Below are positions 16,909 through 30,871 of a DNA stretch of 33,394 nucleotides, one piece after another. The notes under the pieces are model-generated. The model was not told where the DNA came from, made no database searches, and saw nothing but the letters and a program-made list of their open reading frames with translations. The stretch spans positions 1 to 33,394 of the forward strand of contig CAIOZW010000036.1 in the NCBI GenBank assembly GCA_903862855.1, written 5' to 3'. Both the position numbers and the translations under genes were made by a program. Position 1 is the first letter of the stretch. Every line of letters starts with the position of its first letter. Source of the DNA: an uncultured Acidobacteriota bacterium. Lineage in GTDB: Bacteria; Acidobacteriota; Blastocatellia; RBC074.

Positions 16909-16925
16909 GTGGCCAAAAAAGCCAC
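16909..16925 (+). other. Small hairpin in the actA leader
   Basis: GTGGC (16909-16913) and GCCAC (16921-16925) flank a CAAAAAA loop, 25 bases before the actA start. It is weak by itself and could be chance. The actA SD (GGAGG) lies just downstream of it. Confidence 0.3.
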
Positions 16926-16950
16926 AGGATTTGATGTTGGAGGTCAAAAT

Positions 16951-17610
16951 ATGCCACAGATCTTTCCCCGCAGCGCGAATACGCTTGCGCGGTTTAGCAT
17001 CGTGTTGGTTGGTCTTATCGCAGGTGGGGCCCTCTGGTTCATTCTGAATTTTAATCGGACTACATACGTTACCCAGGCCTTTGTCGCCCGTCAGCAGCCA
17101 GTTCAGTTTTCGCACAAGCATCACGTTGGTGATGATGGCATCGACTGCCGTTATTGCCACCAGACGGTTGAGAAGACTGCTTCGGCTGGACTGCCATCGA
17201 CGAAGACCTGTATGAATTGCCACTCGCAACTCTTTGCGAATGTCCCCTACCTTGAAATCGTGCGGGAGAGCTGGCGGTCGGGAAAGCCGATCGAGTGGCA
17301 GCGTGTGCACGACCTTCCTGACTTTTCCTATTTCAATCACAGTATTCACGTCAACAAAGGCGTTGGATGCTCGACCTGTCACGGTCGAGTCGACCTGATG
17401 CCGCTGATGTGGAACACCCAATCGCTCCAGATGGAATGGTGCCTCTCCTGCCATCGTGCGCCTGAAAAAGTGCTGCGTGAGCAGAAGGACATTACCAAAA
17501 TGGATTGGGTTGCTCCGCCGGATCAGGACGTGAAGGGAAAAGAGCTGGCGAAACAATACAATATTCAATCAACATCAGTGCTGACGAGCTGTTCGACCTG
17601 CCACCGTTAG
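16951..17610 (+). CDS. actA: ACIII subunit ActA, pentaheme cytochrome c
   Basis: Membrane-anchored pentaheme cytochrome of 219 residues, the electron-wire subunit of alternative complex III. One N-terminal transmembrane helix spans about 15-33. Five CXXCH motifs lie at about 66-70, 87-91, 140-144, 164-168 and 214-218, the last just one residue before the stop. Additional His residues (FSHKHH, FNHSIHVN) are probable sixth ligands for bis-His hemes. The start ATG 16951 follows GGAGG by 7 bases; a longer GTG frame from 16909 is discounted. It is first in the order actABCDEF, and a 262-base gap before actB is longer than the other junctions. The transcript probably begins between the upstream terminator and this gene. 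Confidence 0.94.
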   Translation: MPQIFPRSANTLARFSIVLVGLIAGGALWFILNFNRTTYVTQAFVARQQPVQFSHKHHVGDDGIDCRYCHQTVEKTASAGLPSTKTCMNCHSQLFANVPYLEIVRESWRSGKPIEWQRVHDLPDFSYFNHSIHVNKGVGCSTCHGRVDLMPLMWNTQSLQMEWCLSCHRAPEKVLREQKDITKMDWVAPPDQDVKGKELAKQYNIQSTSVLTSCSTCHR

Positions 17611-17872
17611 GCACATTGAGCGGTTTGGCGCAGAGTGGCAGGCTGGTTGACTCGTCCGGCGAGTCGGGGGCCCGGCAAGTCGAGATAAGTTAGTGCAGCG
17701 GGCAGTCAGCGCTGACAAAACGGTAAGAGGTGAGCCGGATCGGCGGCGGTTGAGCGACCTCCAGACAATGTGAGGATCTGGATAGTGATAATGCCCGGAG
17801 AGGGAGGTCACGGATTCCAGACGACCGTAAAGTTCATTCCGGTAAAGTAAACGGAGAGACGGAAAATCGATC

Positions 17873-20800
17873 ATGTCCCATCAAGATCATCATCACGATA
17901 TAGAGCCGATACGCGAGGAGATCGAGCAAGCGGCACGAGGCAGAAGCGGCCGGGAGTTCTGGCGCAGCCTCGAGGAGCTGGCCGATACCGACAGGTTTCG
18001 CGAATTTCTGCACCGCGAGTTCCCGGCCCTGAATGCACCGGAGACCGATCCTTCTCTGCTCGACCCGACCGGGCGACGTAACTTCATGAAGCTGATGAGC
18101 GCCTCACTGGCGCTGGCCGGACTGACGGCCTGTACGAGGCAGCCGAAGGAGAAGGTCATCCCCTACGTCAAGGTGCCGGAAGGTCTGGTTCCCGGAAAGT
18201 CGTCTTTCTACGCGACCGCGATGACACTTGGCGGTGTTGCACAGGGGCTGCTGGTTGAGAGCAATGAAGGGCGCCCGACGAAGATCGAGGGTAATCCTGA
18301 TCATCCGACCCGGGGTGGAACGGATGTGTTTGCCCAGGCCTCGGTGCTCTCCCTCTACGATCCGGACCGGTCACAGTCGGTGACCTATCTTGGTGATGTC
18401 CGAACCTGGGGAGACTTCCTCAACGGATTTCGATCGGCGCTCGATGGCCAGCGGACCAAGCAGGGGAATGGCCTGCGGATTCTCTCGGAGACGGTCACCT
18501 CACCGACCTTCGCCGAGCAGATGAGAAAGGTCATGGCTCAGTTTCCGCAGGCGAAATGGCATACCTATGAGCCTGCCAGTCGTGATGGAGCGCGAGCCGG
18601 GGCGGTTCTTGCATTCGGTGAGACGGCAAACGCCGTCTACCGGTTCGAGAATGCGTCGGTTGTCCTCTCGCTCGATGCCGATTTCCTGACCAACGGACCT
18701 GGAGCAACACGCTACGCCCGTGACTTCATGAGCCGGCGTCGACTGACAGATGGGGCGACCGAGATGAATCGCCTCTACATGGTCGAGAGTACGATGACGA
18801 CGACCGGAGCCAAGGCCGATCACCGCCTCCCATTGAGGGCGGTTGAGGTCGACTCCTTTGCCCGTACGGTCGCCGCCGGGCTCGGAATCAATGCTGGTGC
18901 GCCCGGGGCACTCAGTGCCGAAGCGAAGAAGATGGCCGATGTGGTCGCTCGCGATCTCAAAGCGAGTGCCGGCAAGGCGGTGGTCATCGCCGGTGAGCAT
19001 CAGTCACCTGCCGTCCACGCCATTGCCAATGCCATCAACTCGTCGCTGGGGGCGATCGGGAACACGGTAATCTATACCGCACCAATCGAGGCCAATCCGG
19101 TCGATCAGGCCGGATCGATCACCGAGCTGGTTCGCGATATGAATGCCGAGCGGGTCGATCTGCTGATTATTCTCGGTGGAAACCCGGTCTACAATGCACC
19201 AATTGTCAAGGATGAGCGGACAGGGAAGGATCTGAGCTTCCTCGACGCCATGAAAAAGGTCGGAGTGCGCGTTCACCTTGGTCTCTACAATGATGAGACG
19301 GCCGAGCATTGTCAGTGGCACGTAGCCGAGTCACACTACCTCGAGGGGTGGAGTGATGCTCTTGCCTACGATGGCACGGCGAGTATCGTCCAGCCACTCA
19401 TCCAGCCGCTCTATGGTGGCAAAAATGGACACGACATTCTGGCGGTGATGGGTAACGAGCCGGGCATCCCTGCCTACGAGATCATCCGCAACTACTGGAA
19501 GACCCGGCTTGGTGCTGATTTCGAAACCTCCTGGAAGCAGGCGCTCCACGACGGTTTCATTCCCAATTCGGCCCTGACGGCGAAGCCGGTCACCCTGAAG
19601 GCCGATTTTGCCGCCTCTCTGCCAGCGGTGCCAAACGTGGCCCAGGAGATCGTCTTCCGGATCGACCCGACGGTTCATGATGGTCGATTTGCCAACAATT
19701 CCTGGCTGCAGGAGCTGCCCAAGCCGATCAACAAGGTCACCTGGGACAACTTCGCGATCATCAGTTCGAAGACGGCTTCAAGTATTGGACTCTCACCAAA
19801 AGAGGAGCCCAATCATACGCAGGCGAAGATGCTCAAGCTGGTTCACGAGGGGCGTGAACTGACCCTGCCCGCCTGGATCCAGCCGGGCCACCCGGACGAT
19901 TCGGTCACGGTCTATCTTGGATACGGCCGGTCGCGTGCCGGCAGTGTTGGTACGAAGCTCGGTTTCAACACCTATACTCTGCGCACGGCTGAGACGGCAT
20001 TCGTCGCTCACAGTGGAGTCAAGTTTGAGATCGGCAGCGGCTCATACGAACTGGCCTCGACTCAGGAGCATTTTGCGATCGACACGAGCGGGATCAAGAG
20101 CGATTTCATGATCGCTGGAGAGGACCTGACCGCCCGTCACATTCTGCGTTCGGCAAGCCTCGAAGAGTATAGTCACGACACCCACGTCCTGCATCACGGG
20201 GCGCACAAGCCCGGCAAGGAGCTGACCGTCTTCCCGCACTGGAAGTACGACGGCTATTCGTGGGGTATGGCGATCGACCTCAATGCGTGCGTCGGTTGCA
20301 ATGCCTGTGTCGTTGCCTGTCAGTCTGAGAACAACATTGCAGTGGTTGGCAAGGAACTGGTCGCCAAGGGGCGCATCATGCATTGGCTGCGCATCGACAC
20401 CTACTTCAAGGGTGGTGTGGTCAATCCTGAGGTCTACTTCCAGCCGATGATGTGTCAGCAGTGCGAGAACGCTCCTTGTGAGGTCGTCTGTCCGGTCAAT
20501 GCGACGGTTCACGACGCAGAGGGGCTCAACGTCCAGGTCTACAACCGCTGCGTTGGAACCCGTTACTGCTCGAACAACTGCCCTTACAAGGTGCGTCGTT
20601 TCAACTATCTTCTCTACGGAGACTGGGAGACGCCAAGTCTGAAGAATGTCCGCAACCCCGAGGTGACCATCCGGTCACGCGGTGTGATGGAGAAGTGCAC
20701 ATTCTGCACCCAGCGTATTCAGGCGGCCAAGATCGAGGCCGAGAAGCAGAATCGCCCGGTGCGCGATGGTGAGATCCAGACCGCCTGTCAGACGGCCTGC

Positions 20801-21022
20801 CCGACGGAAGCGATCATCTTCGGTAACCTCAACGATCCGGCAAGCCGCGTGGCGAAACTGAAGAATGAGCCACGGAACTACGATGTCCTGGCGGATCTCA
20901 ACACCCGGCCGCGAGCCAGCTACCTTGGCCCGATCCGGAACAGCAATTCGGAACTTGGCGGCGCAAAGGGCCACGGCGATTCACACGGTGGCCAGCAAGC
21001 AGGAGGCGCAAATCATGGCTGA
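17873..21022 (+). CDS. actB: ACIII subunit ActB, molybdopterin-oxidoreductase-like plus Fe-S protein
   Basis: Large peripheral subunit of 1049 residues, facing the periplasm in known complexes. The N-terminus has FWRSLEELADTDRFREFLHREFP (about 29-51), typical of TAT-exported ActB-like proteins. A twin-Arg motif GRRNFMK and hydrophobic stretch end in LTAC (Cys 87), which could be a lipobox. Residues about 100-780 form the molybdopterin-oxidoreductase-like (MopB) region; in studied ACIII this domain carries no Mo cofactor. The C-terminal ferredoxin part has CVGCNACVVAC (806-816), CQQCENAPCEVVC, RCVGTRYCSNNCPY, CTFCTQR and CQTACP, enough Cys for the usual four Fe-S clusters. Its stop overlaps actC by 8 bases, so translation is probably coupled. 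Assignment is firm from domain order and neighbours. Confidence 0.96.
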   Translation: MSHQDHHHDIEPIREEIEQAARGRSGREFWRSLEELADTDRFREFLHREFPALNAPETDPSLLDPTGRRNFMKLMSASLALAGLTACTRQPKEKVIPYVKVPEGLVPGKSSFYATAMTLGGVAQGLLVESNEGRPTKIEGNPDHPTRGGTDVFAQASVLSLYDPDRSQSVTYLGDVRTWGDFLNGFRSALDGQRTKQGNGLRILSETVTSPTFAEQMRKVMAQFPQAKWHTYEPASRDGARAGAVLAFGETANAVYRFENASVVLSLDADFLTNGPGATRYARDFMSRRRLTDGATEMNRLYMVESTMTTTGAKADHRLPLRAVEVDSFARTVAAGLGINAGAPGALSAEAKKMADVVARDLKASAGKAVVIAGEHQSPAVHAIANAINSSLGAIGNTVIYTAPIEANPVDQAGSITELVRDMNAERVDLLIILGGNPVYNAPIVKDERTGKDLSFLDAMKKVGVRVHLGLYNDETAEHCQWHVAESHYLEGWSDALAYDGTASIVQPLIQPLYGGKNGHDILAVMGNEPGIPAYEIIRNYWKTRLGADFETSWKQALHDGFIPNSALTAKPVTLKADFAASLPAVPNVAQEIVFRIDPTVHDGRFANNSWLQELPKPINKVTWDNFAIISSKTASSIGLSPKEEPNHTQAKMLKLVHEGRELTLPAWIQPGHPDDSVTVYLGYGRSRAGSVGTKLGFNTYTLRTAETAFVAHSGVKFEIGSGSYELASTQEHFAIDTSGIKSDFMIAGEDLTARHILRSASLEEYSHDTHVLHHGAHKPGKELTVFPHWKYDGYSWGMAIDLNACVGCNACVVACQSENNIAVVGKELVAKGRIMHWLRIDTYFKGGVVNPEVYFQPMMCQQCENAPCEVVCPVNATVHDAEGLNVQVYNRCVGTRYCSNNCPYKVRRFNYLLYGDWETPSLKNVRNPEVTIRSRGVMEKCTFCTQRIQAAKIEAEKQNRPVRDGEIQTACQTACPTEAIIFGNLNDPASRVAKLKNEPRNYDVLADLNTRPRASYLGPIRNSNSELGGAKGHGDSHGGQQAGGANHG

Positions 21023-22454
21023 TAAGATCGAAAACAACGGATACGTCGATCCGCGTCCCCCCGTCATAGGGCCGGGATACACCTTCGAGACCTTGACGTC
21101 CAAGATTGCCGATGTGGTGCTCATGCGCCGGTTTCAGAAGGGCTGGATCTTTGGATTTGGCATCGCCTTTCTGCTCGCGCTGGTTCTCTTCAACACGATT
21201 GCCTACCTCGTCCTGAAAGGTGTCGGCATCTGGGGAAACAGCGTTCCGGTTGGTTGGGCCTTCGACATCATCAATTTTGTCTGGTGGATTGGAATCGGAC
21301 ACGCCGGAACGCTCATCTCGGCCATCCTGCTTCTGCTCCGGCAGAGCTGGCGTAACTCGATCAACCGATTTGCCGAAGCGATGACACTCTTCGCCGTCGC
21401 CTGTGCCGGTCTCTTTCCAGCTCTCCACACCGGACGGCCCTGGGTCGACTACTGGCTCTTCCCCTATCCGAACACCATGGGGATGTGGCCCAATTTCCGG
21501 AGTCCGCTGATGTGGGACGTCTTTGCCGTCTCCACCTACGCGACCGTCTCGGCGATCTTCTGGTTCATCGGCCTGATCCCCGATTTTGGCACGATGCGTG
21601 ACACGGCCAAGCAGCCGTGGCAGCGAGCCATCTTCGGCATCCTCTCGATGGGCTGGCGCGGTGATGCCAAACACTGGCACCGTTATGAGTCGGCCTACCT
21701 TCTCCTTGCCGGTCTCTCGACACCGCTCGTCCTCTCGGTTCACTCGATCGTCTCGTTCGACTTCTCGGTCGGTATCATTCCGGGCTGGCATGCGACGATC
21801 TTTCCGCCATACTTTGTGGCGGGAGCGGTCTATGCCGGATTTGCAATGGTGCTGACGATCGGAATTCCGGTGCGGAAGTTCTACAATCTGGAAGATTTCA
21901 TCACGATCCGTCACATCCGCAACATGTGCAAGGTCATGCTCGCGACCGGATTGATTGTCGGTTATGGCTACCTGATGGAGCTCTTCTTTGCCTGGTACAG
22001 CGGCAACACCTACGAGCAGTTCATGATGAAGAATCGCATGTTTGGCCCCTACGGCTACATGTACTGGCTGCTCATCCTCTGTAATATCCTTGTTCCGCAG
22101 CTCCTCTGGGTGAAGAAGTATCGTGACAATCTCCTTGTCGTCTTTGTTGTCTCGATGTTCATCAACGTCGGCATGTGGCTGGAGCGCTTTGTGATCATCG
22201 TCATGAGCCTCCACCGCGACTTCCTGCCCTCATCGTGGCGGATGTATTCACCGTCGCTCTTCGACTTCAGCATGTTCTTCGGAACCATTGGACTCTTCCT
22301 CACGCTGATGTTCCTCTTCCTGCGCTTTGTCCCGATCATCCCGATGTTTGAGATGAAGGTGATGCTGCCGCAGGCCAAGGTCGAAGAAGGTGATGAGGCA
22401 GCACAGAAGGAGAAGGGGACTCTCGGCGGAGCAGTTCCACAGTTTGGCGACTGA
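21015..22454 (+). CDS. actC: ACIII subunit ActC, NrfD-like quinol-interacting membrane protein
   Basis: Polytopic NrfD/PsrC-family protein of 479 residues with about ten hydrophobic helices. In ACIII this subunit is held to form the quinol site together with the neighbouring Fe-S and heme subunits. Recognisable stretches are WGNSVPVGWAFDIINFVWWIGIGHAGTLISAILLLLRQ, FAVACAGLFPALHTGRPW, GWRGDAKHWHRYESAYLLLAGLSTPLVLSVHSIVSFDFS and LMELFFAWYSGNTYEQFM. Conserved His, Asp and Glu residues in these helices suit proton or quinol handling. ATG 21015 has AGGAGG 8 bases upstream inside the end of actB. Upstream in-frame codons belong to the actB overlap and are not used. The 181-base gap to actD contains tandem repeats. 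Confidence 0.96.
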   Translation: MADKIENNGYVDPRPPVIGPGYTFETLTSKIADVVLMRRFQKGWIFGFGIAFLLALVLFNTIAYLVLKGVGIWGNSVPVGWAFDIINFVWWIGIGHAGTLISAILLLLRQSWRNSINRFAEAMTLFAVACAGLFPALHTGRPWVDYWLFPYPNTMGMWPNFRSPLMWDVFAVSTYATVSAIFWFIGLIPDFGTMRDTAKQPWQRAIFGILSMGWRGDAKHWHRYESAYLLLAGLSTPLVLSVHSIVSFDFSVGIIPGWHATIFPPYFVAGAVYAGFAMVLTIGIPVRKFYNLEDFITIRHIRNMCKVMLATGLIVGYGYLMELFFAWYSGNTYEQFMMKNRMFGPYGYMYWLLILCNILVPQLLWVKKYRDNLLVVFVVSMFINVGMWLERFVIIVMSLHRDFLPSSWRMYSPSLFDFSMFFGTIGLFLTLMFLFLRFVPIIPMFEMKVMLPQAKVEEGDEAAQKEKGTLGGAVPQFGD

Positions 22455-22569
22455 AAAGGGACCGGCAACGCAGGATCGCTGAGTGGTGATGCTCACAAAC
22501 CCTGTATTTGACACGAGGCGGACTGGTCAGCCGTTGCCAGCTTGGACATTGAATATTTTGACGCAGAAA

Positions 22570-22599
22570 ATTTCGATGTTGAGTATTTCGATGTTGAAT
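22570..22599 (+). repeat. Two 15-bp tandem repeats in the actC-actD gap
   Basis: ATTTCGATGTTGAGT (22570-22584) is followed by ATTTCGATGTTGAAT (22585-22599). Similar degenerate text (TTGAATATTTTGACG) precedes them. A weak TTGACG (22558-22563) lies 17 bases from GAGTAT, which might be a poor promoter. The AT-rich repeat ends 36 bases before the actD start. Confidence 0.75.
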
Positions 22600-22635
22600 G
22601 TTTCATTCAGGATCAACCCTGGGCAAAATTGAGAT

Positions 22636-23181
22636 ATGAATAGACAGGAAGAACAAACAATCTACGGAGTAATGGCCCGTTTCGACACGCCCACCGAGGT
22701 GGTTCGTGCGGCCAGGGCGACTCACGACGCCGGGTACCGGAAGGTCAACGCCTACAGTCCATTCCCGATCGAAGAGTTGTCAGAGGCGATCGGGTTCCAC
22801 AAGGATCACGTCTCCAAGACGGTACTCCTCGGTGGATTGACGGGCGCGGCGGCCGGCTTCGCACTGCAGTACTTCACCTCGGTTATCGATTACCCGATCA
22901 ACGTTGGTGGAAGACCGCTGCTGAGCCTGCCCTCTTTCGTGCCGATCATCTTTGAGACGGCCATTCTCCTTGCCGCCTTCGGGGCCGCACTTGGAATGAT
23001 CATCATGAATCGCCTGCCGCAGCCCTATCACCCGGTATTCAATGTGCCGAGTTTCAAGCGTGCCTCGCGGGATGCCTTCTTTATTTGTATCAAGTCGGAA
23101 GATCCGATGTTTGATCAGGCTGGAGCTCGCAACTTTCTGACCGGCCTTGGAGCGAAAGAGGTGACCGATGTTGAAGCATAG
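22636..23181 (+). CDS. actD: ACIII subunit ActD (DUF3341)
   Basis: Subunit of 181 residues with the DUF3341 pattern: [40 protein letters not shown] at 9-48, then two transmembrane helices (about 62-82 and 104-127), then [27 protein letters not shown] and a ferredoxin-like C-terminal half ending in the GLGAKEV motif. In characterised ACIII it is a membrane subunit without redox cofactor. It starts after a 181-base gap behind actC, and its stop overlaps the actE start by 14 bases, so actD and actE are probably translationally coupled. Confidence 0.94.
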
Positions 23182-23860
23182 AGGAAGAGCGCTGATCCTG
23201 AGTCTGCTGGTTGCAGGTGGAGCGGTTGCTGCTTCGGGATGCCGCCAGGACATGCACGACAATCCGCGTTATGAGCCATACGAAGCCGGCTCGCACCGCG
23301 AGATCCCGGAAGGAACCGTTGCCCGTGGAGCGATCGACACAAATCCGTCAGCTCCGAAGGTGGTGCAGGCCGCAGCCTCCCCGACACCGGCCGCTGGAGC
23401 GGCCGCGCCGGCTGTGCCGGGAGCTACTCCGGCCCCCGTCTCCGCGGTACCCGTTGGCGAGGATGGTCTCCCCTTCAGGATTACGAAGCAGATTCTCGAC
23501 CGTGGGCAGAACCGTTACAACATCTCCTGTCTCCCCTGCCACGGGGCGCTCGGTGATGGCAATGGCATGATCGCCCTGCGTGGCATTCGCCGTCCGCCCT
23601 CATACCATGATGAGCGGTTGCGGAAGGCGCCAACCAGCTACTTTTATGATGTGATCACCAACGGTTTTGGGGCGATGTCAAACTATGCAGATCAGTTGAC
23701 TCCCGAGGATCGCTGGAAGGTGATCGCCTACATCCGAGTTCTCCAATTGAGTCAGCGTGCCGATGGAAATCAGCTCAAAGAGGGCGACCGGCAGAAGCTG
23801 GAAGAGGCAGAGCATGCAACGGAAGGGCATCAGACTGCCGGAGGTCATAGCAACCAATGA
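23168..23860 (+). CDS. actE: ACIII subunit ActE, monoheme cytochrome c lipoprotein
   Basis: Lipoprotein cytochrome of 230 residues. The signal peptide ends in a lipobox, AASGC, making Cys 25 the probable lipidated residue. A Pro/Ala-rich linker (about 65-95) leads to the heme domain with CLPCH (C121, C124, H125), HGALGDGNG, and a candidate axial Met near 170 ([24 protein letters not shown]). The C-terminus is charged. In ACIII this subunit is the electron exit towards oxidase cytochrome domains, here most likely the cytochrome c tail of CoxB encoded downstream. The gene overlaps both neighbours (14 bases with actD and 4 bases with actF), a tight operon arrangement. Confidence 0.94.
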
Positions 23861-25071
23861 ACAAGAATTTTGCTGCACCGTCCGAACTGGGGCGGCTTCA
23901 GAGCCTGGTGTTCGGAGTCGGTCTGTTCGGGCTGATCGGATGGGTTGTCGGACTCGTTCTCTCCGGGCACGCCCGTGAAATGTTCTTTCACACCTATCTG
24001 GTCGCTTATGTCTTCTGGGTCGGCATCGCTCTCGGCTGCCTCGGCTGGCTGATGATCCAGTACCTTGGCGGGGCGACGTGGGGAATCGTGATTCGGCGTA
24101 TTCTCGAGTCCGGAGCCCACACGCTCATTCTGATGGCGGTTCTCTTTGTGCCGATCATTGTCGGTATCAAGGACATCTACCAGTGGGCAGAGATCGATCA
24201 GATTGCCAACGAGGAGCTGCGAACGCTCGTCGCCAAGAAGACGGCCTGGCTCAACCCTGGCTTCTTTACACTGCGTGCCGTTATCTACTTCGCCATTCTG
24301 CTGCTGCTGACGATCGTTCTGCGCCGACTCTCGCACAAGCTCGACGCCACCGGTGACCCGCAGAACATTGGCAGTGCCCAGAACTGGAGTGGACCAGGCT
24401 TCCTCATCTACGGTCTTGTCTGTACCTTCGCCTCGATCGACTGGGTCATGTCGCTCGACCCGGAGTGGTTCTCGTCCCTCTTCGGACTGCTCACGATCGC
24501 TGGTCAGGGTGTTGCTTCGATGGCCCTGATCATCATGGTATGTGTCGTTCTTGCCAAGCGCGAGCCGATGAACCACATCCTCAAGCCAAAGCATTTCCAC
24601 GATTTCGGGAAACTGCTCATGGCGCTGGTCTGTGTCTGGGCCTACTTCTCCTTCTCCCAGTTGCTGATCATCTGGTCCGGCAATCTGCCTGAGGAGATAC
24701 CGTGGTATATCGAAAGATTCAAGGGACCGTGGCGCTACATTGGACTTGCTCTGATCGGCCTCCACTTTCTGCTGCCCTTCTTCCTTCTCCTCTCGCGTGA
24801 TCTGAAGAAGAACAGCCGTCGTCTGGTAATGGTTGCCTGGCTGATCATCGTCATGCGGTTTGTCGATCTCTTCTGGGTGATCGTCCCATCGATGGAGAAC
24901 GATCATCACCAGGCAGTGAAATTGTCGAGCTATCCGATCTACATCCTGGCCACGATCGGTTTTGGTGGAATCTGGCTTGGCTGGTTCTTCTGGCAACTGC
25001 GCCAGCGTGACCTGGTACCTCACCGCGATCCGCAGTTTGAAGAGGCGATCAGCGGTGGTTCGCACCACTGA
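23857..25071 (+). CDS. actF: ACIII subunit ActF, polytopic membrane protein
   Basis: Membrane protein of 404 residues with about ten hydrophobic helices, the smaller NrfD-related membrane subunit of ACIII. Visible markers are [30 protein letters not shown], the KDIYQW loop, [19 protein letters not shown]-region equivalents such as [59 protein letters not shown], and [11 protein letters not shown] near the C-terminus. It begins in an ATGA overlap with actE and is followed 23 bases later by the small unknown gene. The assignment is strong from order, length and motifs. Confidence 0.95.
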
Positions 25072-25094
25072 GTTTCATAACCTGAATATATTTT

Positions 25095-25700
25095 ATGAGC
25101 GAACATAACGAGCAACATCATCACGATCATCAGGAGCCCGAGTCGAGTTCAATCAAGGCCAAGCCTATCCTGGCCTTCCTTGGTATCCTCGCCGCGGCGA
25201 CGGCCTTTGTCTTTGTGCTGATCTGGGGACTTCTCTGGGCCTTTGACAAGCGAAGGGATGCCGATACGACACCACCTGCCTCACGAGTCGAACTTCCGGA
25301 AGGGCAGCGCAAACTGCCACCAGAGCCGCGCCTCCAGGGTGCGCCGGCGCCGGATGGGCCATCGCTTCTCCCTCTTGACGACTGGAAGGTCTACAAGGAG
25401 ATGACCGATCGCAAGGTTGCCTCATACGAGTGGGTCGACAAGACAGCGGGTATCGCCCGCATCCCGATTGAAAGGGCCAAGGAACTGGTCGCCGAGCAGG
25501 GGCTCCCGCTGCTGTCAGAGAAATCGATCAGCGATATAGAACGGGCTGAAGCGACCCGGCGCGAAGTCTATGCGGCCGATTCGAGTGCCGGTCGTCTGCT
25601 TCGTGCCGTCACCACCAGTACCCAGCCGGCAGCGGCACCAGTTGCACCGGCTCCACCGGCCAGTAACGCGGCCCCAGCTCCGGCTGCTCCGCAGCACTGA
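25095..25700 (+). CDS. Single-TM protein of unknown function within the ACIII-oxidase operon
   Basis: Protein of 201 residues with a His- and Glu-rich N-terminal tail ([13 protein letters not shown]), one transmembrane helix (about 28-50), then a periplasmic part. The distinctive segment is [43 protein letters not shown] (about 96-138). I recognise its W-V-D-x-x-A-G-x-x-R-I-P-I pattern as recurring near oxidase genes in related phyla, but I know no established function. A low-complexity Ala/Pro tail (about 175-201) ends the protein. It sits between actF and the Sco-CoxB frame, so it may be an assembly or linking subunit of the ACIII-caa3 system (inference). No Cys and no heme motif are present, so it is unlikely to carry electrons itself. 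Confidence 0.85.
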
Positions 25701-25786: not shown

Positions 25787-27778
25787 ATGGAGAAGAACCG
25801 AGGCAGTCTGAGAGAAAGTATGTTCAGGATGTACACAAAAAGAACGTGCGAGTATACCGCAGGGCTGGTGAGAGGGGGCGGGATGGCTATCCTGACCATT
25901 CTACTGACTTGCCTCGCGGTGACCGATCTCTCGGCGCAGCCCGCCGGCATGCGACCTCCGGTGCTGAAGGATGTCGGGATCGACCAGCTCCTCAATAATC
26001 AGGTTCCTCTCGATCTGACTTTTCAGGACGAGGAGGGGCGAACTGTCAGGCTGGCCGATTATTTCGGTGACAAGCCGATCGTTCTTTCGCTGGTCTATTA
26101 CGACTGCCCGCAGCTTTGTACACAGGTACTGACCGGTTTGCTGGGTACACTCAAGACACTGCCGATGTCACCCGGCCGGGACTTCATCTCGATTACGGTC
26201 AGCTTCGATCCAAAGGAGAAGACCCCGCTTGCGGCAGCCAAGAAGCGAGAGTATATCGAACGACTTGGTCGTCCCGAGGCTGCTGCCGGATGGCATTTTC
26301 TGACCGGTGAGGAGTCACAGATCGTCTCCCTGACCCGTGCTGTCGGGTTTCGATACGTCTGGGATCCTGTCACAAGTCAGTACGCGCACGCCAGTGGAAT
26401 CATGGTTCTCACGCCGCAGGGCAAGGTCTCGCGCTATTTTTACGGGATTGAGTATGCCCCGCGAGACCTCAGGTTTGGTCTCCTCGATGCATCGGCTGGG
26501 AAGATCGGCTCACTCGCCGATCAGATCATTCTTTACTGTTATCAATACGATCCAACCCGGGGCACCTACAGTCTAGTTCTGATGCGTCTGCTCCGGATCT
26601 TCGCGGTCATTACACTGGTCTCCATCGTCGGACTGATCCTCTTTTTGCGATATCAGTCAAAAAAGAAGGATGGCCGTTCCTCGGGAAACAGTTCGGAGTC
26701 CGGGGACGCCAAACCGAAAATTGGATATTCAAATATGAGCATTCTTCCTCTATATCTGATCCCTTTTGCACCTGAGCAGGCCTCCACATTTGCTCCGGAA
26801 GTAGATCTCTTCTTTCTCTTCCTGATCGGTCTGACCGTCTTCTTCACTCTGCTCGTCGGGATTCTCGCCGTCATCTTCATGGTACGATATCGCCGGCGGC
26901 GCGAGGACGAAGTGCCGGAGCAGATCGAAGGAGCGATGCTTCTCGAAATAACATGGTCGGTCATTCCTTTCATCATCTCGATGTTCATCTTCGCATGGGG
27001 TGCGAAGCTCTACTACGATATGTACAAGGAACCGAAGGACGCTCTCGAGATCTTTGTGACCGGAAAACAATGGATGTGGAGAGCCCAGCATCCGGACGGA
27101 GTTCGTGAGATCAACGAGCTGCACCTCCCGGCTGGCCGTCGGGTCAAGCTGACCATGACCAGCGAGGATGTCATCCATTCATACTTCATCCCGGCTTTTC
27201 GAACAAAGGCGGATGTCGTTCCCGGACGATACACGATGACCTGGTTTGAGCCAACGAAACCCGGAACTTATCACCTCTTCTGTACCGAGTACTGCGGAAC
27301 ACAGCATTCAGGGATGATCGGCAAGGTTACCGTGCTCAGCCAGTCTGATTACCAGAACTGGCTTGCCGGCGGAACCTCAGAGGGCTCACCAGCAAAGAAT
27401 GGCGAGAAGCTCTTTGCCAGCCTGGCCTGCAGCACCTGCCATCAGGATCAAAACCGTGGCCGTGGCCCGACCCTGGCTGGACTCTTCGGCTCACAGGTCA
27501 AACTTGATAATGGTACCTCTGTTCTGGCAGATGATGCTTACATTCGCGAGTCGATCCTCAATCCCCGGGCGAAGATGGTTGCCGGGTATCAGCCGATCAT
27601 GCCAACCTTCCAGGGCCAGGTCAGCGAGGAACAGATAATTCAGCTCATCGCCTATATCAAGTCTATTGGCACTAAACAGGATGGCCAGGATGGGACAGTC
27701 GCCGCTGGTGCGGCTCCCGCACCGTCCAACAACGCCACGCCAATGGTACAGGGTGCGGCGCCGCCGGCAACCAGATAG
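25787..27778 (+). CDS. coxB: Single frame joining a Sco1/SenC copper chaperone to caa3 oxidase subunit II with cytochrome c
   Basis: This 663-codon frame has no stop between two normally separate genes. Residues about 33-50 are a signal segment. The Sco domain (about 55-250) has DCPQLC with Cu-binding Cys 107 and Cys 111, plus His 201 ([12 protein letters not shown]), and is followed by a membrane helix (266-288) and KKK. CoxB then begins at Met 317 (ATG 26735): helices 338-366 and 386-405, and a CuA site from His 464, Cys 499, Glu 501, Cys 503, His 507 and Met 510. The C-terminal cytochrome c has CSTCH (548-552) and Met 605 in IMPTF. The Sco part presumably metallates CuA; the CoxB part takes electrons from ACIII. 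Whether one polypeptide or two are made is uncertain (see findings). ATG 25820 is an alternative start. Confidence 0.88.
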
Positions 27779-27895: not shown

Positions 27896-29551
<1,656 letters not shown>

Positions 29552-29561
29552 AATCGTGTCG

Positions 29562-29598
29562 CAGGCGCCTCTGACCGGTCTTGCCGGTCCAGCGCCTG
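29562..29598 (+). other. Stem-loop in the coxA-coxC intergenic region
   Basis: CAGGCGC (29562-29568) pairs with GCGCCTG (29592-29598), and inside it GACCGG (29573-29578) pairs with CCGGTC (29584-29589) around TCTTG. No U-run follows, so it is not a standard intrinsic terminator. It starts 10 bases after the coxA stop and could adjust mRNA stability or readthrough. Confidence 0.65.
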
Positions 29599-29748
29599 TC
29601 GAGTGGCTCCTGCCGGATGAGCGCATTGTCTCCGGTGATGAAAATGGCAGACGGTCGAGCCTTCGCTGGAGTCGCTGAAAAGCTCGCAGACGGCAGTAGA
29701 TCGACATCGTGTGAGTACCATTTCAAGGAAAAGCCATTTTAAGTAAAT

Positions 29749-29753
29749 GGAGG
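29749..29753 (+). promoter_or_regulatory. Ribosome binding site deciding a TTG start for coxC
   Basis: GGAGG lies 8 bases before TTG 29762. It overlaps the more obvious ATG at 29747, which has no SD at a proper distance. This favours the TTG start. Confidence 0.65.
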
Positions 29754-29761
29754 ATTCAATC

Positions 29762-30445
29762 TTGGCAGACAGTCATGCATCACAATACGGATTAGCGCAT
29801 CATTTCAGCTCGATGGAGCAGCAGCGAGAGGCCGGAACGATCGGCATGTGGATCTTTCTGCTTACCGAACTGATGTTCTTTGGCGGAATGTTCCTGGTCT
29901 ACGCGATCTTCCGAACCACCTACCCGGCCGGCTTCGAGCAGGGAAGTCACCTGCTCAGCGTCAAGCTCGGTGGTCTGAACACAATTGTGCTGATTGTCAG
30001 CAGCGTGACCATGGCCATGGCCGTCTACTACTCGCAGATTGGTGAGAAGAAGAGACTGGTCGGGATGCTCTCGGTGACCCTTGTTCTCGGTCTCGTCTTT
30101 CTGGTGGTCAAGTACTTTGAGTACCGTGAGAAGTTCGAGCACCACCTCTTTCCAGCCATGGGATTCTACGCGCCTGATGCCGAGCACCTTGCGCTTCAGT
30201 ATCACCAGCAGGTCCGGGTGTTTCTCTGGATCTACTTTGCGATGACCGGGCTTCACGCTCTGCATATGATCATCGGCGCGGGAATGCTTCTGGTACTGAT
30301 CCTGATGGCACACAAGGGGCGCTTTACGACATCGTACAACTCACCCGTAGAGATCTGCGGACTCTACTGGCACTTTGTCGATATCGTCTGGATCTTCCTT
30401 TTCCCTTTGCTCTACCTGACTGGTTACCACCTGACAGGTCATTAA
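29762..30445 (+). CDS. coxC: Cytochrome c oxidase subunit III
   Basis: Membrane subunit of 227 residues with about five helices. Family marks are [34 protein letters not shown] near the N-terminus, [14 protein letters not shown] in the middle, [14 protein letters not shown] and the terminal [25 protein letters not shown]. The start is taken as TTG 29762, giving [15 protein letters not shown], because a good SD (GGAGG) precedes it; ATG 29747 would add five residues and has no SD. A 210-base gap with a strong hairpin separates it from coxA, which is unusual in an otherwise compact operon. Function: structural subunit III of the caa3 oxidase, stabilising the active site. Confidence 0.95.
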
Positions 30446-30541
30446 GGGGTCACCGGTTATCGCTGGTAACAGGATTGGGGTGATGGAACCAGGTTGGATA
30501 CGGTTCCATTGGCAAATTATCGAGAGAGGCTATCAAAAGTT

Positions 30542-30871
30542 ATGTCGGATCATACCGAGCATCACATTGTTTCACCAAAGATCTACTTTGCGATCTTTGG
30601 TGCCCTTATGGTCTTTACTGCAATTACCGTCGCCGTGGCGAGGTTCGATCTCGCCTCGGTATGGGGACCATTGAACATCATCGTGGCCATGACTGTTGCG
30701 ACGATCAAGGCGACGTTGGTTGTCCTCTATTTCATGCACGTTCGTTACAGCTCCAAGCTGACCCAGGTGATCGTCATTGCGGGTCTCTTCTGGCTGCTGA
30801 TCATGCTGGTTCTGACCATTGCCGACTATGTTGCCCGGACCGGTTGGCCGACTCCGCTCGGACAGGTCTAA
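30542..30871 (+). CDS. coxD: Cytochrome c oxidase subunit IV (small CoxD/CtaF-type)
   Basis: Small membrane protein of 109 residues with three helices (about 15-35, 42-66 and 74-98). It is recognised by HIVSPKIYFAIFGALMVFTAITV, LNIIVAMTVATIKATLVVLYFMHVRYSSKL and the position at the end of the oxidase genes, as in prokaryotic COX4/CtaF proteins. The start ATG 30542 (MSDHTEHH) is chosen over an upstream TTG at 30494 because relatives begin similarly. The SD is weak: GAGAGG, 12 bases upstream. A long stem-loop follows 24 bases after the stop and probably marks the end of the transcript. Confidence 0.93.
   Translation: MSDHTEHHIVSPKIYFAIFGALMVFTAITVAVARFDLASVWGPLNIIVAMTVATIKATLVVLYFMHVRYSSKLTQVIVIAGLFWLLIMLVLTIADYVARTGWPTPLGQV

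Follow-up and report, generated by a model that had tools for sequence, protein, structure and literature searches.

An in-frame fusion of the copper chaperone Sco with cytochrome c oxidase subunit II beside alternative complex III genes in an uncultured acidobacterium

Introduction

Does an uninterrupted reading frame that joins a copper chaperone to its client oxidase subunit encode one working chain, two separate proteins, or an assembly mistake? The question is raised by a 33,394-nucleotide stretch of DNA (contig CAIOZW010000036.1 of assembly GCA_903862855.1; hereafter the window) from an uncultured member of the Blastocatellia (Acidobacteriota), in which an earlier note, made from the letters alone, had read Sco, CoxB and cytochrome c in a single frame with contradictory membrane topology. 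In published accounts of CuA assembly, Sco binds reduced subunit II and then leaves (PMC9145763; PMC7558416), and a tethered Sco would be a departure from that scheme. The note saw in a fused chaperone a possible way of keeping metallation stoichiometric; because the published cycle includes release from subunit II (PMC9145763), a permanent tether is not obviously advantageous. A literature search, incomplete in its coverage, returned no description of a Sco-CoxB fusion.

Results

The frame comprises 663 codons with its sole stop at the end, and runs from Sco through the Sco membrane helix, the CoxB helices and CuA to cytochrome c (Table 1). SCO1-SenC (residues 78-213), COX2_TM (331-402), COX2 (443-510) and Cytochrom_C (536-627) all exceed their Pfam cut-offs in the same protein, and the NCBIfam CoxB equivalog TIGR02866 scores 195.8 bits against a cut-off of 147.7. 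The Sco assignment is carried by PF02630 (32.4 bits, cut-off 22.8) and by CPQLC at 107-111 with His201, and the AlphaFold (AF2) fold of this half matches the Sco-like structure 3ME7. The CoxB portion has the two-helix hairpin and a CuA domain whose six ligands (H464, C499, E501, C503, H507 and M510) are complete in the fused protein, while PF00034 (36.5 bits), CSTCH (548-552) and Met605 identify a caa3-type subunit II. The single frame first noticed in the window is thus real in its domains and intact in its metal ligands, and recurs in a second genome. The limits of two membrane helices named beforehand shift to about 263-290 for Sco (from 266-288) and about 341-366 for CoxB helix 1 (from 338-366). 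Translation probably begins at Met33 (25883), directly before the signal peptide, rather than at the first ATG (25787).

Table 1. Features of the fused gene and its neighbourhood, in window coordinates
Feature	Coordinates	Strand	Evidence
sco-coxB-cytochrome c fused frame, 663 aa	25787..27778	+	domain matches; fused counterpart in second genome (L004)
Probable true start (Met33) and signal peptide	25883..25936	+	inspection; hydrophobic segment
Sco thioredoxin-fold domain; CPQLC 26105-26119, His 26387-26389	25943..26551	+	Pfam SCO1-SenC; ligands; AF2 fold resembles 3me7
Sco C-terminal membrane helix (out to in), then KKK	26573..26656	+	dG -4.9; helix in AF2 model
Linker, fast-evolving and frame-preserving; sister species 3 codons shorter	26657..26734	+	two-species comparison
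Charge-free hydrophobic segment, candidate extra crossing (in to out)	26720..26773	+	segment statistics; non-helical in AF2
Old coxB RBS region (GGA, 9 nt spacing) and ATG 26735-26737	26723..26737	+	start-site comparison; SD energy
CoxB membrane helix 1 (out to in), then RYRRRR	26807..26884	+	COX2_TM; AF2
CoxB membrane helix 2 (in to out)	26942..27025	+	COX2_TM; AF2
CuA (COX2) domain, all six ligands	27113..27316	+	Pfam; ligand check
C-terminal cytochrome c domain; CSTCH 27428-27442	27392..27667	+	Pfam; motif check
Alternative complex III genes (multihaem cytochrome, Fe-S protein, NrfD, ActD, cytochrome c, two unnamed membrane proteins)	16909..25700	+	upstream
coxA, coxC and subunit IV of the same oxidase	27896..30871	+	downstream

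The fused gene is the only COX2 gene of the window genome (G000, 97% complete), where a genome-wide search for a second coxB found none, and likewise of the second genome of the genus (G001). The adjacent coxA is intact in the former and cut by a contig end in the latter; one other Sco homologue, a distant one, is present in the window genome. Two further COX1-family genes of that genome (contigs C104 and C87) lack a COX2 partner and are cbb3- or NOR-like, which leaves the fused gene a single oxidase to serve. Within the window, a 201-residue one-helix protein without a Pfam match lies between the ActF-like gene and sco (25095-25697), and what appears on inspection to be the start of a large carboxypeptidase-regulatory-like/TonB-receptor-type gene is cut by the contig end (31670-33394).

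The same fusion, again without a stop, is present at 82% identity in the second genome, LaPlata_bin-2782 (L004/L033); there the linker is in frame, 3 codons (9 nt) shorter than that of the window, and lacks the A-run found in the latter. Changes between the two species at codon positions 1/2/3 number 15/10/106 in Sco and 9/7/50 in CuA. This excess at third positions (106 of 131 and 50 of 66, respectively) shows purifying selection on both halves. The linker (residues 289-313; 10/9/14) has evolved nearly without protein constraint, with its frame kept. At its start in the window an in-frame A_AAA_AAG (26659-26665) forms a classic -1 slippery heptamer, at which a shift would terminate Sco at 26773-26775. 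We rejected programmed frameshifting of the dnaX type, as the heptamer is absent from LaPlata_bin-2782 and the downstream fold (z -0.5) offers no stimulatory structure.

In the nearest non-fused genus (L005, L006, L007 and L022), the sco TGA lies 15-21 nt upstream of coxB ATGAGC, and the two genes share a frame in three of the four species. The stretch ATTGGATAT..ATATGAGC upstream of the coxB ATG is recognisable in fused and unfused species, and is read as IGYS(N/H)-M in the former; because it also precedes unfused coxB, we take the intergenic ribosome-binding (RBS) region to have become linker after loss of the stop. At the level of sequence, this comparison establishes that the fusion arose from separate, in-frame sco and coxB genes. 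The suggestion of a lost ATGA stop/start overlap is not supported here, as the ATGA of the sister genus is simply part of its Met-Ser codons and the stop is the upstream TGA. It is true that shifting the frame by +1 would place the end of Sco at the TGA within ATGA (26736), in the sister species too, but this coincidence says little because in both species the linker can be read through in any of the three frames. Upstream of ATTGGATAT the linker is unalignable, making the exact stop-removing mutation irrecoverable. The IGYS(N/H) motif was considered as a sign of protein-level selection and set aside, being indistinguishable from a conserved RBS region when ATTGGATAT precedes unfused coxB as well.

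Uninterrupted fusions occur in 6 of 162 genomes of the class: two of the window genus, G004 (L008), G003 as a second copy (L017), G023 (L011) and G092 (L145). Across the phylum, 396 sampled genomes yielded no additional fusion, and a scan of named genomes yielded one more, in a Polyangiaceae bacterium (L082). On a Sco+CoxB tree the fused label takes five changes, and supported branches force four of these; L011 and L145 fall far from the window family, within which a single fusion that later split apart is as parsimonious as repeated fusion. Once the Polyangiaceae case is counted, the number of origins is likely four or more. G003 holds both the fused gene (contig C12) and a separate sco-coxB pair (L117, contig C5) in two oxidase clusters, which allows the two arrangements to be compared within a single genome.

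The earlier note had raised re-initiation at the old coxB start, ATG 26735, as one option. Both species of the window genus keep this ATG with GGA nine bases upstream, at Shine-Dalgarno (SD) energies of -3.1 and -3.3, equal to those of true coxB starts in the unfused sister genus (-3.0 to -3.1); background in-frame ATGs have a median of -2.4, so that the retained RBS (-3.1) is weak and near background. The 44 nt around the old start are AT-rich: among in-frame positions, only 0.8% and 2.4% in the two species rank as high. Openness of the mRNA at this site was not specific, as lineages without the start codon are equally open and only AT content separates the window genus. With ATG, weak RBS and AT-rich context retained, initiation there is plausible in the window genus. 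Elsewhere, the Polyangiaceae fusion has a good internal start (ATG, SD -5.5); G004 has lost the ATG at the old position and has another in-frame ATG (SD -3.2); and neither L017 nor L145 has a plausible one. In at least two other lineages, then, a through-translated chain is the only option, since L017 and L145 lack a usable start, and such a chain appears viable from these gene structures. The genomes of L017 and L145 carry other coxB genes, and these two cases are therefore no proof that a through-fusion can be the sole CoxB; G004 has no other CoxB.

The topological contradiction pointed out beforehand is genuine. Sco proteins are periplasmic and held by a single helix or a lipid anchor; by sequence, the Sco part here has a signal peptide and one C-terminal helix, yet the chain continues into CoxB. 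A periplasmic Sco domain requires that the helix following it finish on the cytoplasmic side, where KKK lies, and this would leave the linker there, whereas the positive-inside residues after CoxB helix 1 (RYRRRR) demand a periplasmic CoxB N-terminus; in a working chain the linker would have to cross back. A hydrophobic segment had been seen in the linker and described as a short, weak run of ten letters, which understates a charge-free stretch of 18 residues (312-329). Across fused Acidobacteriota, the charge-free stretch before CoxB spans 18-24 residues with 11-13 hydrophobic, against medians of 9 and 5 in unfused CoxB N-tails. For a fairer baseline, we removed the stop in silico from unfused relatives whose two genes share a frame (stretch quartiles 6/10/12); the five fused lineages, with 18-22 residues, exceed it in length (p about 4e-4), hydrophobic count (2e-4) and insertion energy (0.005), in a test devised after the data were seen, on few lineages, three of them from one family and treated as independent. 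The estimated insertion energy of the window segment is unfavourable (+3.2 kcal/mol), and the estimates for the fused lineages are marginal (+1.2 to +5.1). AlphaFold models of the window protein (P0001) and of the more hydrophobic L145 show low-confidence coil in the linker and no membrane helix. The Polyangiaceae fusion, with its good internal start, lacks a long crossing segment, in keeping with a segment that counts where translation runs on from Sco into CoxB. Taken together, these features are no more than suggestive of a segment that evolved to cross the membrane. Separately, unfused Acidobacteriaceae-type CoxB proteins (L042, L043, L045, L066 and L074) have a long N-terminal segment (SPVLWQFLIKWLTYFAIFPPEAS) that resembles an extra amphipathic or membrane helix ahead of helix 1.

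Discussion

We favour, with a probability of roughly 0.6, a genuine fusion from which a full-length chain and, probably, free CoxB as well are made. Under this reading, sco has lost its stop, the short intergenic RBS region of coxB has become an in-frame linker, and the fused gene persists as sole supplier of subunit II to the caa3-type oxidase beside alternative complex III. Ribosomes starting at sco would read through into a Sco-CoxB-cytochrome c chain, and for that chain to work the linker would have to return to the periplasm, either because the 18-residue, charge-free and Pro-rich segment spans the membrane in a four-pass arrangement, or through a cut in or after the segment. Free CoxB would probably be made as well, from the retained ATG 26735 with its weak GGA RBS and AT-rich context. 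A more specific version, in which a four-pass protein metallates its own CuA in cis and has arisen several times, gaining a crossing segment on each occasion, we regard as tentative and short of an even chance.

Among the competing explanations, CoxB might be made by internal initiation only, from ATG 26735, with the long product a mis-inserted and degraded Sco bearing a useless extension, and the fusion a tolerated accident. This would dispose of the topology conflict and would make sense of the retained RBS, ATG and AT-rich context, and of a Polyangiaceae gene that has a good start and no long segment. That the fusion has been kept while the proteins diverged to 82% identity, and that fusions elsewhere have lost the start, makes it rather unlikely, and it leaves the hydrophobic segments unexplained.

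The converse, that only the long four-pass chain functions, with the linker segment crossing, the chaperone metallating its client in cis, and the ATG and RBS mere relics, is also unlikely, a shade more so. It draws on L017 and L145, which lack a usable start, on G004, which has neither the ATG at the old position nor another CoxB, and on the convergent long charge-free hydrophobic segments of the fused lineages. Set against these are the missing helix in the AlphaFold models, the marginal insertion energy, the preservation of RBS, ATG and AT-rich context in both species of the window genus, and the alternative in-frame ATG of G004.

Somewhat less probable again is a polyprotein, made whole and then cut in or after the linker by signal peptidase or another protease to release Sco and CoxB. 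On inspection, a Lys-rich side, a hydrophobic stretch and (S/T)xA before CoxB helix 1 are arranged as in a signal peptide; unfused CoxB, however, conserves (S/T)xA equally well, so that these residues are non-specific, and in the window protein Pro comes after the Ala. Lastly, an error of sequencing or assembly, or a frameshift that arose recently near the A-run (which is present, at 26659-26664 rather than 26658-26664) or at the ATGA overlap, as the earlier note had considered, is scarcely credible: although a +1 shift would end Sco exactly at a TGA and the source is a draft MAG, the independently assembled second genome is fused with no A-run and a linker 9 nt different, the unfused sister genus uses a different stop for sco, and further fused lineages exist.

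If the single chain works, it would be a chaperone-client fusion made by nature, in which the transient Sco-CoxB complex is frozen, implying that CuA can be built without the departure of Sco, and that a fused protein can acquire an additional membrane pass when its topology calls for one. If instead internal initiation or cleavage operates, the locus would be a clean case of an eroding operon boundary with both products kept. Recurrence renders the question testable by cross-lineage comparison.

The closest known arrangement is the separate sco-coxB tandem beside alternative complex III in Acidobacteriota and other phyla, which has the same gene order, the same domains and often the same frame, but places a stop between the genes and gives CoxB a short exported N-tail (median 9 charge-free residues). 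Subunit II of the Thermus caa3 oxidase (2YEV chain B), the best match in both sequence and fold, shares the CoxB helices, CuA and cytochrome c, and has no Sco domain in front. Sco proteins such as those of Bacillus (1XZO/1ON4) and Aquifex (Aq_2194, 3ME7) share the thioredoxin fold, CxxxC and His; the window Sco differs in that its C-terminal anchor continues into the client protein. FbcH, the cytochrome b-c1 precursor of Bradyrhizobium, likewise encodes two proteins of the respiratory chain in a single frame, with a junction at which membrane topology is at issue, and is proteolytically cut; for the present fusion, a cut is one candidate outcome. Judged by its sequence relatives, each half is thus an ordinary member of its family, and their joining belongs to a known kind of event, the fusion of genes that are neighbours in an operon.
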